DNA of 10,000 nucleotides. Origin: Magnetospirillum sp. (lineage in GTDB: Bacteria > Pseudomonadota > Alphaproteobacteria > Rhodospirillales > Magnetospirillaceae). Numbering within the stretch: position 1 is the first letter of the stretch; each line of letters starts with the position of its first letter. The stretch spans positions 1 through 10,000 of the forward strand of contig JAIWOG010000102.1 of assembly GCA_020217035.1 (NCBI GenBank). Reading direction: 5' to 3'. Positions 5,667 to 10,000 of this stretch are shown piece by piece. Made by a program: the position numbers and the translations under genes. The notes under the pieces are model-generated. The model had not been told where the DNA came from. It did not search any database and saw only the letters and a list, made by a program, of their open reading frames with translations.

Positions 5667-6155
5667 ATGATCGTTTTCGACCTGCGCGAGGAAGCGAGAC
5701 TGGTGTCCTACCTGTACCTGACCGGCGGGCTGACCTTGGCCTTGCTGCTGGTGGGCCTGACCCACAAGTGGTTCCAGGGAAGGCTATGGCCCGCCACCCT
5801 GGGCGACGCCGCCTTCCCCCTGGCCCTGGTCTTCGCCCTGGCGTCGCTGGGCCTGGGCTGGATGGAAGTGGACGAACGCCAACAGGCCGAAACCTTGGCC
5901 GCCCAATGCCTGGCAGGTCAGTGCGACATGGTGGAAGGGCCGGTGGTCAGCGCCACCCCGGTCCGTCAGGTGACCCAAGGCAGCCGCTACACCGCCCCCA
6001 TGGAAAGGGGCGAGTTCCGGGTCGGCGACCATGTCTTCTTCCACTATCCCCGCGACCATTCCGACTATAGCCCCGCCAACAAACTTCAACCGGGCCAGAA
6101 GGTCCGGGTGTACAGCCATCAACAGGTTTTGGTGCTGGTCGAGGAAATCCATTGA
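5667..6155 (+). CDS. Small membrane protein of unknown function, two predicted helices plus soluble C-terminal domain
   Basis: I do not recognise this 162-residue protein. It starts at ATG 5667 after a G-rich ribosome binding site (GGGCGGGGG). Two hydrophobic stretches, about residues 17-34 and 46-66, suggest two membrane helices. They are followed by a soluble domain of about 95 residues (from roughly MEVDERQQAE onward) that is rich in short beta-like segments and in V, G and charged residues. Two cysteines in CLAGQC lie just after the second helix. Its TGA (6153-6155) overlaps the TTG start of the truncated arfB (6152-6154), so the two were translationally coupled in the ancestral operon. 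It follows the diguanylate cyclase by 19 bases, which hints at co-transcription but does not prove a signalling role. Codon use matches the genes to its left. Confidence 0.8.
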   Translation: MIVFDLREEARLVSYLYLTGGLTLALLLVGLTHKWFQGRLWPATLGDAAFPLALVFALASLGLGWMEVDERQQAETLAAQCLAGQCDMVEGPVVSATPVRQVTQGSRYTAPMERGEFRVGDHVFFHYPRDHSDYSPANKLQPGQKVRVYSHQQVLVLVEEIH

Positions 6156-6253
6156 TCCCCATCACCCGCCGCATCGCCCTGGACGAGTCCGAACTGACCG
6201 AAAGCTTTTCCCGCGCTTCCGGCCCCGGCGGGCAGAACGTCAACACAGTTTGA
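6152..6253 (+). pseudogene. arfB: Truncated arfB: peptidyl-tRNA hydrolase cut off just after the GGQ motif
   Basis: Starting at TTG 6152 the frame reads MIPITRRIALDESELTES, then FSRASGPGGQNVN, then T, V and a stop at 6251-6253. The first 31 residues are unmistakably the N-terminus of ArfB (YaeJ), the GGQ hydrolase that frees stalled ribosomes lacking a stop codon. The expected next residues, KVE and the rest of the domain plus basic tail (about 105 residues), are missing, so this copy cannot work. Similarity ends at about base 6245. By eye, 22 of the 31 residues match the complete copy starting at 6318, but the DNA differs at many third positions, so it is not a recent local duplication. It overlaps the stop of the preceding membrane protein gene, which marks it as the original operon member. 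Confidence 0.82.
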
Positions 6254-6306
6254 ACGTCATAGCTAGACAACCCACCGGCCAGTGGACGAGGGAGCGCGGG
6301 CCTCGG

Positions 6307-6312
6307 TATAAA
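6307..6312 (+). promoter_or_regulatory. Possible -10 box very close to the second arfB start
   Basis: TATAAA lies five bases before the ATG at 6318. A weak -35-like GTGGAC sits 19 bases further upstream. If used, transcription would begin at or near the start codon and give an almost leaderless mRNA. This fits the lack of a clear ribosome binding site in front of this gene. The evidence is one good hexamer and one poor one. Confidence 0.3.
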
Positions 6313-6317
6313 GCCGG

Positions 6318-6737
6318 ATGATCCGCATCACGCACCGCATCTCCATCGACGAGAAGGAACTGGAGGAGACGTTCGTCCGCTCCTCCGGGCCAGGCGGGCA
6401 GAATGTGAATAAGGTGGAGAGTGCGGTCCAACTGCGGTTCGACGTGCGGAACTCCCCCTCCCTGCCCGACCGGGTCAAGGAGCGCATGGTCGCCATCGCC
6501 GGCAGCCGCATGACCCAGGACGGGGTGCTGGTCATCATCGCCCAGCGCCACCGGACCCAGGAGCGGAACCGCGCCGATGCCCTCGACCGCCTAATCGACC
6601 TGCTCCGCGACGCGGCGGCCCCGCCGCCGCCCGTGCGCCGCCCGACCAAGCCCACGAAGGGATCGCAACAACGGCGACTGGACAGCAAGTCGAAGCACTC
6701 GGCGACGAAGCGGCTGCGGTCACAGCGGCCGGAGTAA
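6318..6737 (+). CDS. arfB: Alternative ribosome-rescue factor ArfB (GGQ peptidyl-tRNA hydrolase), complete
   Basis: This 139-residue protein is of full ArfB (YaeJ/ICT1-like) length. It hydrolyses peptidyl-tRNA on ribosomes stalled at the end of mRNAs without a stop codon. The catalytic domain (1-100) begins MIRITHRISIDEKELEE and contains SGPGGQNVNKVESAV, where the GGQ reaches the peptidyl transferase centre. A Pro-rich linker (AAAPPPPVRRPTKPT) leads to a basic tail (KGSQQRRLDSKSKHSATKR and beyond) that in this family enters the empty mRNA channel, so all functional parts are present. No strong Shine-Dalgarno sequence precedes ATG 6318. It lies 64 bases after the stop of a truncated arfB of different sequence, so it probably replaces the broken host gene. 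It converges with the HUH-protein gene. Confidence 0.93.
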   Translation: MIRITHRISIDEKELEETFVRSSGPGGQNVNKVESAVQLRFDVRNSPSLPDRVKERMVAIAGSRMTQDGVLVIIAQRHRTQERNRADALDRLIDLLRDAAAPPPPVRRPTKPTKGSQQRRLDSKSKHSATKRLRSQRPE

Positions 6738-6834: not shown

Positions 6835-7815
6835 TCACGGCGCCCCGTCGAGTGGTGGCTTGAAACCGCGGATGATCGCCCAAGCCTCGACGACGCGCCG
6901 CACGGCTTCCATCCGACCCATGTCTTGCGCCTCCAGCGCCTTCACAACCCGGACCATTACGGGTGCGTCGCGCTCGAAGACTCCGAGGAACGGGGTGGTC
7001 GGCATCTTACCCTGACGGGCGTTCACCAGCATTTCCGTCAGGCCGGCGGCATTCAGGATGTCGATGTCGCCTTGCCCGATGACGTCGGCCAGCTCGCGGA
7101 TCGGAGTGGAAATGGTGACCTCGTCGTCACACTGATTGCCCATGAGCTGGCCGCCGGCTTGGCTCTCGATGAGGTTCTTCTGGAGGTACCCAACGACATT
7201 CCAGAGGTTATGGTCGATGGCCTTGATGTGTCCGCTTCTGGCCTCTTTTGTGCGCCCCCGCGCCCGGCAATACTCCAACAGAGCCTTAAAGGTCGGGGAG
7301 CCCCTGGCGCAGTCCAGCACGATCAAGTGGACGTGTGGCTGACGACTGAAGGCCGGAGGTTTACCGGGCTTGGTCTTCTGCTTGGCGTGCTCGACGAGGA
7401 CGCCGAAGTACAGGGCGCCCAGGCCGCCATTGCTCCGTGTGATGCGCTTGTTGATGGCCGACCTGACCGACGCCAGCGTCTCGCCCTCGACCAAGTTGAT
7501 GGTGAGGAGAGCCATGCCGGCAAGGGCCGGGTCATGGAGCAGGGCGGCAGCCGCGCATAGGTCGAGCTGGGTCTGTGGGGAGTGGGCCGAGAACCTGGTC
7601 CGGGTGGTTGTCCGGGCGAGGGTCTTCGCCATCGTGACCAAGTCGTTCTCGGGCAGGGAGTCGAGGGAGATGAGGAGGTCTTCTCCCCCTTCTATAACTG
7701 ATCGATTCCGGCGCCTTCGCAGCAAGCCTCTGACTCGATTGGCGAAATCGCGATTTTCTGGACCTTGCGTGTCCGCAGAATGCAAGTTGTCGGCGTTGGC
7801 CGTGGCGGTGGTCAT
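6835..7815 (-). CDS. Putative HUH-type replication initiator / single-strand nickase
   Basis: This 326-residue protein has the motif order of single-tyrosine HUH endonucleases, which nick one DNA strand and attach to it during rolling-circle replication, transfer or transposition. A first strand (MALLTINLVEG, 101-111) is followed by a helix. A second strand with an acidic residue (ALYFGVLVEH, Glu142) leads to the HUH metal site PHVHLIVLD (H161, H163), and then NVVGYLQKNLIE supplies Tyr210 and Lys213 in the usual YxxK arrangement. A helical N-terminus of about 95 residues and a C-terminal tail of about 110 residues flank this core. GGAG lies seven bases before ATG 7815, and an in-frame stop lies just upstream. 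The opposite strand also has a long open frame, but it lacks recognisable motifs. The exact family (inovirus Gp2/YfjJ-like, phage or plasmid Rep) cannot be decided by eye. No helicase or ATPase partner is visible. Confidence 0.6.
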   Translation of the reverse strand: MTTATANADNLHSADTQGPENRDFANRVRGLLRRRRNRSVIEGGEDLLISLDSLPENDLVTMAKTLARTTTRTRFSAHSPQTQLDLCAAAALLHDPALAGMALLTINLVEGETLASVRSAINKRITRSNGGLGALYFGVLVEHAKQKTKPGKPPAFSRQPHVHLIVLDCARGSPTFKALLEYCRARGRTKEARSGHIKAIDHNLWNVVGYLQKNLIESQAGGQLMGNQCDDEVTISTPIRELADVIGQGDIDILNAAGLTEMLVNARQGKMPTTPFLGVFERDAPVMVRVVKALEAQDMGRMEAVRRVVEAWAIIRGFKPPLDGAP

Positions 7816-8007: not shown

Positions 8008-8319
8008 TCACTTTTTCCCATAGTAGTGGCCGATCACGAAGGTCACCACGGGGATAATGGCGACCTTGAGGAGCTCCATGGCGCTTCCGAACAGCTTGTC
8101 AAAGTCAGAACCTCGCCACGCTTCAGCCATGATGAGGATGACAACCGCTCCGACGACGACAAGATAGGCGCCCATGACGAGTTTCGTGGTCGAGTACCGT
8201 GTCCACTCGGAAAGAGGCGCCACCTCAACAGGTTTGGCCGCGTTCGCGTCAGCATCGACCTGCCTTCGCTGCTCTGCGAGCTGCCCCCTGATCTTGTCGA
8301 TGTCGACCGGTCGGCTCAT
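8008..8319 (-). CDS. Small protein with two predicted membrane helices, unknown function
   Basis: This 103-residue protein has a polar N-terminus (about 1-45, with DKIRGQLAEQRRQVDADANA likely helical). It continues with a membrane helix at about 47-65, a short charged loop (EAWRGSDFDKLFG) and a second helix at about 80-97, and ends FVIGHYYGKK. Its start overlaps the stop of the upstream 76-residue gene by four bases (ATGA), so the two are translationally coupled. Size and topology resemble small phage or mobile-element membrane proteins such as holins or coat-like proteins, but no motif settles this. It is the last of three overlapping minus-strand genes. About 190 bases then separate it from the HUH-protein gene. 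Confidence 0.75.
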   Translation of the reverse strand: MSRPVDIDKIRGQLAEQRRQVDADANAAKPVEVAPLSEWTRYSTTKLVMGAYLVVVGAVVILIMAEAWRGSDFDKLFGSAMELLKVAIIPVVTFVIGHYYGKK

Positions 8320-8546
8320 GACGACATGAGCCTATGAATGTTCTGACCGACCTCGCCGGCGGTGTCCCCGATCCTTTGGCCAACGCCGGCCAGCTTCCCA
8401 ATGGCTCTATCCAAAACGAGCCGCTGTTCGGGAGTCGCTTCTTCCTTGAGCTTGTTCAGCTCGTCGATGACTTCAAACAGTTCCATGGCCGCGTCCAGTT
8501 GGGCGCGAAGTCCGCGCTGAACCGACCTCAGATCAAGCGTTGCCAT
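8316..8546 (-). CDS. Small helical soluble protein, unknown function
   Basis: This 76-residue protein begins MATLDLRSVQRGLRAQ at ATG 8546, with AGGGGG about five bases upstream. A TTG one codon earlier is a poorer start. It is rich in A, L, E, R and Q with almost no aromatic residues, and long stretches look like amphipathic helix (residues about 5-35 and 40-70). It may form a helical hairpin or coiled coil. No signal peptide or membrane segment is seen. Its start lies inside the last codons of the 132-residue gene upstream, and its end overlaps the two-helix membrane protein gene (ATGA). The tight overlaps suggest that the three products act together. I do not recognise the family. Confidence 0.7.
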   Translation of the reverse strand: MATLDLRSVQRGLRAQLDAAMELFEVIDELNKLKEEATPEQRLVLDRAIGKLAGVGQRIGDTAGEVGQNIHRLMSS

Positions 8547-8931
8547 CAAAACCCCCTACTCGCTGAACGAAGACCGCGTAGTCGAACGGCCCAACCTGTA
8601 CGCCACCACGCAGGAAGACCCTGCCATTAGCTTCGGTTAGTTTCAAGAACAAAGTGCGAACAACCGGAACCCTTCGGAACGAACCATCGTCTTGAAACAT
8701 GACCGCGTCGGGCTGACCCGTTCGCGGATCAAGGGTCACCGTGGCCTCAAACTGCCCATCAGCCGCCGCCCTCAGGGTGCCCGTTACCAGGCAACCACCG
8801 ACGTCATAGCCGGCGATCCGCCCGTCCCGAATTACCAAATCAGCACGAGAAAACTCGTACATCCCCTCCGGAAGCGACGCGCCACTTGTGAAGTTTGCCG
8901 TGAAAAAGCCATTCAATGCACTGACGTCCAT
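8533..8931 (-). CDS. Beta-rich protein of unknown function (132 residues)
   Basis: ATG 8931 follows a strong GGAGGGG ribosome binding site. The 132-residue product has no signal peptide or membrane helix. It alternates short hydrophobic and polar segments with many G, V, F and T residues (for example DLVIRDGRIAGYDVGG, GQFEATVTLDPRTGQP, GRVFLRGGVQVGPFDYAVF), which points to a compact beta-sandwich or barrel. Its last 14 bases overlap the start of the next gene. It is the first gene of a three-gene minus-strand cluster that is divergent from the lipoprotein gene. I do not recognise the family. Tail-fibre, lipocalin-like or GrlR-like folds are possible readings, but nothing in the sequence chooses among them. 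Confidence 0.72.
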   Translation of the reverse strand: MDVSALNGFFTANFTSGASLPEGMYEFSRADLVIRDGRIAGYDVGGCLVTGTLRAAADGQFEATVTLDPRTGQPDAVMFQDDGSFRRVPVVRTLFLKLTEANGRVFLRGGVQVGPFDYAVFVQRVGGFDGNA

Positions 8932-9060: not shown

Positions 9061-9282
9061 ATGAAGAGGACTGTATTGGTGCTGTGTTCCGGGCTTTTGC
9101 TGGCGGGATGCGCCACCACGTTCAAAGACCCGAATGAGGTCGTCGCGGGGACCACGTCGAAGTTCGATCCCTATGCGGGCGTCCAGGTGCTGAACGGGCC
9201 GATGATCGACACCGGCGAGTTTCCGAACATCACCAAGACCTGGCTGACCGCCGGCATCGTCGCCATCGACTTCCAGGGGTAA
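9061..9282 (+). CDS. Small predicted lipoprotein
   Basis: This 73-residue protein starts at ATG 9061, directly after GGAGGAGGG. A GTG 12 bases upstream is in frame but would lie within that site. Residues 1-16 form a lipoprotein signal (MKR, hydrophobic core, LLAG), and Cys17 is the lipidated residue, leaving a 56-residue tail after it. Ala at +2 of the mature protein suggests sorting to the outer membrane. The mature part (ATTFKDPNEVVAGTTSKFD and beyond) is polar and ends abruptly at IDFQG. It may be complete, or it may be the N-terminal part of a longer ancestral protein. The superinfection-immunity-type gene follows after 9 bases, so the two are probably co-expressed. This suggests an envelope-level role such as blocking entry or modifying the surface, as inference only. 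Confidence 0.78.
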   Translation: MKRTVLVLCSGLLLAGCATTFKDPNEVVAGTTSKFDPYAGVQVLNGPMIDTGEFPNITKTWLTAGIVAIDFQG

Positions 9283-9291
9283 GAGGCAATC

Positions 9292-9639
9292 ATGGTGGAA
9301 GTCTTATCTGGACTCATGGGATTGTTTTTCCTGCTGATGTTCTATCTGGCTCCGTCCATCTGCGCCAACAGCAGGGAACACCAGTCCGTCAACGCCATCA
9401 TCATCCTCAACATGCTCACGGGCTGGACGGTGATCGGTTGGGTCGTCTGCTGGATCTGGGCGCTGACCGGCACCCATAAGCAGGCGGCACAGGCGATTGC
9501 CCAAGCCACCGAGCAGGCGTTACAGGAACAGCGCAAGGGGGTGGACGACGATTCGATGGCTTGCCCCCGCTGCGCGGAAACCATCAAGAAGGCCGCCAAG
9601 ATATGCCGCTTCTGCGGCCATGAATTGGCGCCAGGTTGA
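9292..9639 (+). CDS. Superinfection immunity family membrane protein with C-terminal zinc ribbon
   Basis: This 115-residue protein starts at ATG 9292 with AAGAGG five bases upstream. It has a membrane helix at 5-22 ending in YLAPSICA, a short polar loop (NSREHQSVN), then IIILNMLTGWTVIGWVVCWIWAL (split here: IIILNMLTGW at 36-45, TVIGWVVCWIWAL at 46-58). The LN..TGWT.IGW pattern is characteristic of the superinfection immunity family related to phage T4 Imm, which blocks DNA entry of related phages at the inner membrane. A Gln/Ala-rich helix (63-80) leads to a zinc ribbon with CPRC (91-94) and CRFC (105-108). Chromosomal homologues are common, so an anti-phage role is not assured. Its position in a mobile element beside a lipoprotein favours host protection. 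Confidence 0.83.
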   Translation: MVEVLSGLMGLFFLLMFYLAPSICANSREHQSVNAIIILNMLTGWTVIGWVVCWIWALTGTHKQAAQAIAQATEQALQEQRKGVDDDSMACPRCAETIKKAAKICRFCGHELAPG

Positions 9640-9833: not shown

Positions 9834-10000
9834 TTATCGCAACAGCACGCGACGCACGCTTTCAGCGTGCCACTGGCCGCCGCGAGCGGTCGCGATGCCA
9901 CGGGCGTTCAGCGCCTGGGCTATGGCCGCATAGCCAACAATGCCGGTGCGCTGGATGTCGGCGATGACGGGCCGGACGTTGGCGGCGTGCTGGTCGGCGG
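9834..10000 (-). CDS. Serine recombinase (resolvase/invertase family), C-terminal end (5' end beyond window)
   Basis: Reading the minus strand from the window edge gives 54 residues ending at TAA (9834-9836). The visible end is ADQHAANVRPVIADIQRTG, then IVGYAAIAQALNARGIA, then TARGGQWHAESVRRVLLR. This is the characteristic DNA-binding tail of small serine recombinases (P.I..I...G..s...IA.ALN.RGi.TarGg.WhaesVrrvL.R), which cut and rejoin DNA through a catalytic serine in the N-terminal domain. That domain is outside the window, so activity and full length cannot be judged. This frame was found by reading the edge directly and is too short for a complete gene. As the only recombinase seen in the element, it is the candidate for its integration or excision. 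Confidence 0.8.
   Translation of the reverse strand, partial: ADQHAANVRPVIADIQRTGIVGYAAIAQALNARGIATARGGQWHAESVRRVLLR

Follow-up and report, generated by a model that had tools for sequence, protein, structure and literature searches.

An integrative element, most likely one moved by a large serine integrase, has very probably split the host arfB gene at GAACGTCAAC in the window (the whole 10,000-nt stretch analyzed here, slice C152 of genome G000) and carries a replacement arfB. At this locus we directly observed the target codon, the left attachment arm, a complete second gene, part of the host 3' remnant and, in relatives, empty sites; in genome G070 both arms, the core and a whole element were seen. 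The first-pass annotation had proposed an element that targets the catalytic codons of arfB and brings its own copy, and the empty sites, the recurrence in other genomes and the whole element in G070 support this proposal.

Results

The host arfB gene is cut at its catalytic motif

Analysis of the window confirmed that the host arfB is cut after GGQNVN and that a different, complete arfB lies downstream. The 5' remnant (6152..6253, forward strand) starts with TTG and reads LIPITRRIALDESELTESFSRASGPGGQNVN, followed by TV and a TGA stop codon at 6251-6253, just as the first-pass annotation stated; it holds 31 ArfB residues through GPGGQNVN. Over 93 nt this remnant is 88.2% identical to the intact arfB of G012 and 84.9% identical to that of G009, and by these nucleotide identities it is the native kind of arfB in the genus. 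The attachment core GAACGTCAAC (6235..6244, forward strand) lies within the N-V-N codons and is the same core that is found at both ends of the G070 element. It is followed by the left arm of the element, ACGTCATAGCTAGAC (attL; 6254..6268, forward strand), which is identical in G003, in the second junction of G018 and in G070, and is present as an inverted copy at the right end of the G070 element. The second ArfB was also read correctly from the start: it is complete (139 aa), begins at 6318 and has different codons, with 67 of 93 nt identical to the remnant over codons 1-31.

The host gene upstream (5667..6155, forward strand; ATG at 5667, stop codon at 6153-6155) encodes a 162-aa membrane protein with no Pfam match, and its end overlaps the arfB remnant. 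An uninterrupted arfB had been expected directly after this gene in relatives that lack the element. The intact gene was found, as one uninterrupted 139-aa arfB in each of G009 and G012, which belong to the same genus. The 162-residue gene does not adjoin it, and adjoined arfB in none of 27 other neighborhoods (tblastn, E 1e-8). Conserved neighbors do exist, a GGDEF gene on the upstream side of arfB and YitT and YbaK genes on its downstream side, and these flank the intact arfB of G009 and G012 as they do the window locus.

The predicted 3' remnant of the host gene is present at positions 2-202 of the next assembly slice (C153), although it is visible only from about residue 73. Its nucleotide identity is 90.0% to G012 and 88.6% to G009. 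The joints C151/C152 and C153/C154 read through in frame; C152 and C153 are not directly contiguous, and the stretch missing between them contains the right junction of the element, the window showing the left junction only. The end of C152 and the start of C153 both belong to the broken arfB locus, yet the two slices fail to join.

The same junction recurs in one bacterial family

Other arfB genes broken at the same place (about codon 31) and accompanied by a complete copy, which the first-pass annotation suggested searching for, were found in 8 of 55 genomes of the family. These are G000, G003, G011, G018 (two broken pieces), G029 (3' piece), G070 (both pieces), G073 and G075. Second matches that lay in frames of 381 aa (G071) and 265 aa (G026) were not counted. 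A search of 385 sampled genomes of the class, with no more than 10 candidates scored in each and diverged short pieces liable to be missed, found a broken arfB in none besides G000; second matches there in a frame of 379 aa (G630) and in a complete gene (G292) were likewise left uncounted. A wide host range had also been anticipated; our searches detected the element in a single bacterial family and do not support this.

Eight left junctions could be read in seven of these genomes, and in all of them GAAYGTCA is followed by 15 bases and then CATAGC. Because CATAGC lies at exactly this distance in all eight, the left junction is not a product of chance. The arfB-like sequence stops at about the core in seven of the eight and runs about four codons past it in G075; the core itself is altered in G011 and G073. 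When 248 genomes of the order were searched with the junction pattern, allowing one mismatch, there were seven matches in six genomes, five at arfB (G000, G018 twice and G070, all exact, and G073 with one mismatch) and two elsewhere (G060 and G115, one mismatch each). The reversed pattern, used as a control on the same genomes, gave two matches. The exact attL pattern occurred in six stretches from species genomes of the genome_contigs set, from which records close to the window's own genome may be excluded. Four of these stretches have no ArfB, and the two at arfB (L080 and L083), from a Phaeospirillum MAG and a Rhodospirillales MAG, correspond to G073 and G003. In viral contigs the attL pattern was found in 11 stretches, none of which has ArfB.

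A whole element is present in G070

In G070, which we take to be Magnetospirillum sp. XM-1, the whole element lies on one complete chromosome (contig of 4,825,187 bp). Its left half runs from the arfB 5' remnant through GAACGTCAAC, the arm ACGTCATAGCTAGAC and the promoter to a foreign arfB, and its right half runs from cargo through the C-terminus of an integrase, the arm GTCTAGCTATGACGT and a second GAACGTCAAC to the arfB 3' remnant. The two cores, shared by both junctions, are at L084:4527 and 9263, giving a core-to-core length of 4736 bp, and joining the flanks yields an intact 139-aa ArfB. The 3' remnant is 85.8% identical at the nucleotide level to the G029 gene and 65.4% identical to the arfB copy carried by the element itself. 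At the circle junction the ends read GTCTAGCTATGACGT, 22 bp and ACGTCATAGCTAGAC, that is, perfect 15-bp inverted arms around the core in a 52-bp attP. An attP of about 50 bp with two arms is typical of large serine integrases.

The first-pass annotation named as the alternative an old tandem paralogue with a deletion, which would be favored by a truncated and a complete copy occurring together without other element genes. On this reading arfB was duplicated in tandem long ago and its first copy suffered a deletion, with no mobile element involved. Such pairs do occur: in G003, G011, G073, G075 and the first unit of G018 there is only 0.4-1.1 kb of cargo, with no integrase, between the remnant and the next arfB. 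However, the arm lies at the same distance here as in every other left junction, and in all but G075 the arfB-like sequence ends at about the core. Nor does a duplication fit with the complete copy of the window and of G070 being from another arfB lineage than the remnant, with the two arms and the matching 5' and 3' remnants in G070, or with the relatives that have one intact gene at the site. We consider a tandem duplication highly improbable, and it was rejected because G070 and the shared arms contradict it. Because they have the same arm at the same distance, we read the five small units as scars of an element or as small cassettes rather than as an old tandem paralogue.

The element is probably related to elements that target comM

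The G070 integrase fragment has a zinc-ribbon domain (PF13408), matches the integrase family phrog_95 and has its stop codon inside the right arm. It is 46.6% identical over 247 aa to an intact 582-aa integrase in G034 (residues 331-573); everything before residue 331 is missing, including the catalytic domain. The G034 integrase, with resolvase, recombinase and zinc-ribbon domains, stands beside comM, which the G034 element interrupts (a truncated frame with Pfam ChlI and Mg_chelatase matches), and the integrase junction of G067 reads like this comM junction. Three genes neighboring the G070 integrase also match the G034 element (50-70%), and the G034 and G067 elements share backbone genes with the G070 arfB element. 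Since the G070 integrase, its neighboring genes and a recombinase piece in the window all match G034, the arfB element is probably a member of a family that otherwise targets comM. The G034 (L118, 6749-9175) and G067 (L117) large serine integrases are 87.6% identical to each other over 458 aa and occupy the same place in comM.

Among the eight genomes, none showed an intact integrase at arfB. A search for PF07508 in G000, G003, G011, G018 and G029 found only the window's own piece at arfB, and among the 248 genomes the G070 fragment matched G070, G067 and G034, with no match in G000. The element is classed here as a probable decayed or incomplete member of the large-serine-integrase elements: the G070 enzyme is partial and that of the window would fall in the assembly gap.

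The integrating enzyme might instead be the small serine recombinase at the right end of the window (9834..10000, reverse strand; a C-terminal end cut by the window end; PF07508, E 8.9e-6) or a recombinase acting in trans. The small enzyme is the sole recombinase seen in the window, and the missing counterpart of the G070 fragment in G000 fits with this. We think it unlikely, since the large-integrase C-terminus of G070 ends in the right arm and the 52-bp, two-armed attP fits large serine integrases. Moreover, a 262-aa serine recombinase that is a close relative of the window piece (77% identical over 53 aa) adjoins the intact large integrase at the G034 comM junction. A large serine integrase is the agent that we favor.

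The replacement arfB belongs to another lineage and has its own putative promoter

The replacement arfB of the window (6318..6737, forward strand) scores 196.6 bits and the G070 element copy 192 bits against the NCBIfam ArfB equivalog NF006718, for which the cut-off is 100 bits, and GGQ is kept. The gene starts 166 bp downstream of the start of the remnant in the window, and the spacing is the same in G070. In a tree of 46 ArfB proteins, the window replacement pairs with the protein of G004 (support 100/99) and lies outside the clade (99/98) that is formed by the other 11 genes of the window's genus.

A promoter-like TGGACG-18 nt-TATAAA (6283..6312, forward strand) directly precedes this gene, with 5 nt between the end of the -10 element and the ATG. 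Over the 45 bp ahead of the start codon, the sequence is 73-84% identical to that of G070, G018 and G004; as a comparison, the mean identity of such 45-bp stretches is 31.6% over 325 pairs. A TATAAA at this distance from the ATG (6307-6318) predicts a leaderless mRNA, and the native arfB of G009 is similar.

All nine genomes tested, the eight with a broken arfB and G004, keep tmRNA (in G003 the match is partial and lies where a contig ends). A host need therefore not die when it loses arfB, which is probably a back-up, and simple lethality does not account for selection to carry the gene.

The core of the replacement gene is recoded

An aspect that the first-pass annotation did not foresee is that the core of the replacement gene differs from the target by synonymous codons. 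The common native core is AAC GTC AAC AAG (NVNK), and the host remnant in the window reads AAC GTC AAC. The window replacement has AAT GTG AAT AAG (6402..6413, forward strand), which differs at three of the four codons. AAT GTA AAT AAA stands in the G070 replacement gene, which differs at all four codons, and in the complete arfB of G018, G004 and G013, with the protein unchanged. A degenerate motif gave 147 matches, counted on the motif alone, in 145 of the 248 order genomes. Three of them contain AATGTAAATAAA (G004, G018 and G070); among 46 arfB loci there are four, with G013 added, and all four stand behind an element-type promoter. Compared with nine native genes, the four recoded copies differ at four of four core codons from eight and at three of four from that of G067, with a hypergeometric p of 0.003-0.13 per pair over codons 1-32. 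The recoding of the window taken alone affects two or three of the four codons in such pairs and is not significant (p 0.08-0.33, codons 1-32). Recoding is not universal, because the complete arfB of G003, G011, G073 and G075 keeps the native core, and element-type promoters also precede native cores in G003, G034, G067, G073 and G075.

Judged from their codons, the recoded replacement copies may be used poorly as targets by the element that carries them. That recoding makes the rescue gene self-immune is a tentative proposal, which we would place somewhat below an even chance; if true, it predicts recombination with AACGTCAAC and little with AATGTAAAT. Alternatively, the codon differences could be ordinary drift or donor codon bias, which is only slightly short of an even possibility. 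Drift can produce the window form of the core, since AATGTGAATAAG also occurs in five genomes of two other families. The recoded copies of G070, G018, G004 and G013 may have inherited a single 5' end and so would not be independent events, and the p values per pair are modest (against G009, above 0.05 for three of the four over codons 1-32). In G029 the core change replaces an amino acid (N to H), and the same GGQHVNK is found in G315, which shows no broken copy. However, AATGTAAATAAA was present only in copies with the element-type promoter in the sets examined. The four genes also have A or T at just 14-20% of their third bases (9-20% over five copies including that of the window), yet all four of their core codons end in A or T.

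Two further loci have unusual copies. In G029 (L046, 14735-16318) a complete arfB with GGQHVNK in place of GGQNVNK is followed by HEPN and nucleotidyltransferase frames, the right arm and the 3' remnant, and no left arm was seen there. In G004 (L042, 9168-14327) the only arfB is the foreign, recoded one, which lacks the native GGDEF and YbaK neighbors. Downstream of it are a replication-initiator gene split over two frames (Rep3_N and Rep3_C) and an AlpA-type regulator, so that the region resembles an integrated plasmid or island.

Small units and mosaic 5' ends

The cargo of the small units is a metallophosphatase in G011 and small or lipoprotein-like frames in the others; beside the right arm in G029 there are a HEPN-domain and a nucleotidyltransferase-domain protein. 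A scan that allowed up to three mismatches found no right arm in the stretches analyzed for the small units of G003, G011, G073 and G018; for G075 the reading covered the junction. The form of G003, G011, G073 and G075 is compatible with restoration of the target, whereas the window and G070 carry a separate whole gene instead. G018 has two units in tandem, which suggests that a restored gene was probably hit again.

The 5' ends of several complete copies appear to be mosaic. Between the window and G004 on one side and G070, G018 and G013 on the other, the 45-bp promoter is 64-78% identical and codons 1-31 are 86-90% identical, whereas codons 32-100 are 65-71% identical. When all 325 gene pairs are ranked by 5'-3' difference (mean 3.4, SD 7.1), such pairs take six of the top seven places, and their best breakpoints are at nt 96-152 from the ATG. 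From this contrast and these breakpoints, the left end, recoded core included, seems to move as one block that has been combined with various 3' halves; homologous recombination with a 3' remnant or the action of the recombinase would have made these joins.

These data bear on another view of the small units, namely that those of G003, G011, G073, G075 and the first of G018 are cassettes in their own right that bring cargo, a promoter and the first 31 codons of arfB, with the host gene made whole at the right end of the cassette, in the manner of SXT in prfC; the left end of the window could then be one such cassette stacked on a larger element. The native core in the complete gene of G003, G011, G073 and G075, the position of the complete gene of G003, G011 and G075 among native genes of their own genus in the tree, and the native YbaK gene directly after it in G003 and G011 all fit with this, as do the tandem units of G018 and the close likeness of promoter and codons 1-31 across copies with diverged codons 32-100. 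On the other hand, a single two-armed element explains everything in G070, and the 5'/3' difference is equally large (21.3 points) in a different pair, G029-G072. Homologous recombination between an element copy and a 3' remnant could also leave scars of this form. We regard separate cassettes as a serious possibility that is nonetheless appreciably less than even, and we continue to favor one two-armed element that brings a whole arfB.

A model for insertion and comparison with known systems

On the preferred reading, the element would recombine into the host arfB at GAACGTCAAC, in the N-V-N codons of the catalytic GGQNVN motif. Insertion would split the host gene, and the promoter and complete arfB directly behind the left arm would replace the broken copy, which presupposes that the replacement is expressed and active. 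The agent would be a serine integrase, of which G070 keeps only the C-terminal part and which in the window would lie in the missing stretch. Less certain is the idea that the core of the replacement stays recoded to keep the integrase of the element from targeting it. Later deletion may leave scars in which the recoded arfB is the sole complete copy (G018, and perhaps G004 and G013), and the small units of G003, G011, G073 and G075 would be cases of a complete arfB with the native core behind little cargo. The element could also explain exchange of arfB between genera.

In the open-access literature, judged from titles and abstract openings, we recognized neither an arfB-targeting element nor a natural recoded rescue gene. 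We group the arfB element, on its sequence features, with target-restoring serine-integrase elements. SXT-family ICEs and dusA-specific elements use tyrosine integrases. In prfC and dusA, respectively, they restore the host gene in place (PMC8409611); by contrast, the G070 element brings a whole second gene while both host halves stay as remnants, and its insertion in arfB is at the catalytic motif. Target genes of serine recombinases have been cataloged, and they include comM, a gene for a Mg-chelatase/ATP-dependent protease that large-serine-recombinase elements enter (PMC10083194). Like the arfB element, these insert in a conserved protein gene, and in G034 they have the homologous integrase and the backbone genes shared with G070 described above; the difference is that their target is comM and that of G070 and the window is arfB. 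Islands in tRNA and tmRNA genes, as cataloged by Islander, also split their target, which island sequence restores, and leave a displaced fragment that marks the island end (PMC4383910). The likeness extends to function, tmRNA also being a ribosome-rescue gene. These islands differ in that the target is an RNA gene, the integrases are tyrosine integrases and the split gene is restored by island sequence, whereas the arfB element carries a separate, recoded whole gene.

In engineered Cleave-and-Rescue systems, the breaking enzyme is unable to use the recoded copy. These gene drives resemble the arfB element in that they disrupt a host gene and bring along a recoded version of it (PMC7951863). 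They differ in being engineered nuclease systems in eukaryotes with an inheritance drive; in the arfB element the insertion itself is the break, and immunity by recoding is suggested by codon comparisons. The arfB element may be a natural insert-and-rescue element that strikes a ribosome-rescue gene in its best-conserved codons and in which the recoded copy spares itself and keeps cells immune to further insertion, a view that we hold as possible though shy of probable. If it is true, the recoded sole complete arfB genes of G004, G013 and G018 would be traces of such selection. If recoding does block the integrase, the element would be a natural counterpart of engineered recoded-rescue systems, with a self-immunity that can be tested. 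With the 52-bp attP, the core in arfB and an intact related integrase from G034, the system can be put to the test. With arfB, the targets of integrating elements, among which tmRNA is already known, extend to a protein gene of ribosome rescue, and the catalytic motif is used as a landing site while the gene is kept.

Other genes of the window element

Neither a phage nor a plasmid origin was upheld: ArfB matches were found in only 2 of 50,697 phage records and in 66 of 72,556 plasmid records, all at less than 60% identity. In viral contigs, 36 loci match ArfB or a related release-factor domain. A search for defense genes with PADLOC gave one weak match (E 0.0069) on the cargo of the window. 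In G070 the cargo includes an N-terminal portion of a type IIG-like restriction-methylation protein, a frame (L084, 5377-6756) that matches only positions 2-453 of the 1646-position profile.

Behind the replacement arfB, the element encodes a 326-aa protein (6835..7815, reverse strand) that has no Pfam or PHROG match and no relative in viral contigs. Its HxH (H161, H163) and YxxK (Y210, K213) are invariant in itself and in the only two homologues found, a motif lead by which it is possibly an HUH replication or mobilization protein. An HUH fold as such was rejected, the structure model being too poor (mean pLDDT 40) and no solved structure being matched by sequence. Three more genes are on the reverse strand: a 103-aa membrane protein (8008..8319) with a weak holin-like match below the cut-off (PF23778, E 0.062), a 77-aa small protein (8316..8549) with weak matches only, below the cut-off, and a 132-aa protein (8533..8931) with no assigned family. 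On the forward strand, a 73-aa lipoprotein-like protein (9061..9282) has a weak match to the Cor superinfection-exclusion family (phrog_1119, E 0.0058), and it is followed by a 115-aa superinfection-immunity family protein with a zinc ribbon (9292..9639; PF14373, E 2.3e-15; phrog_1039, E 9.1e-21).
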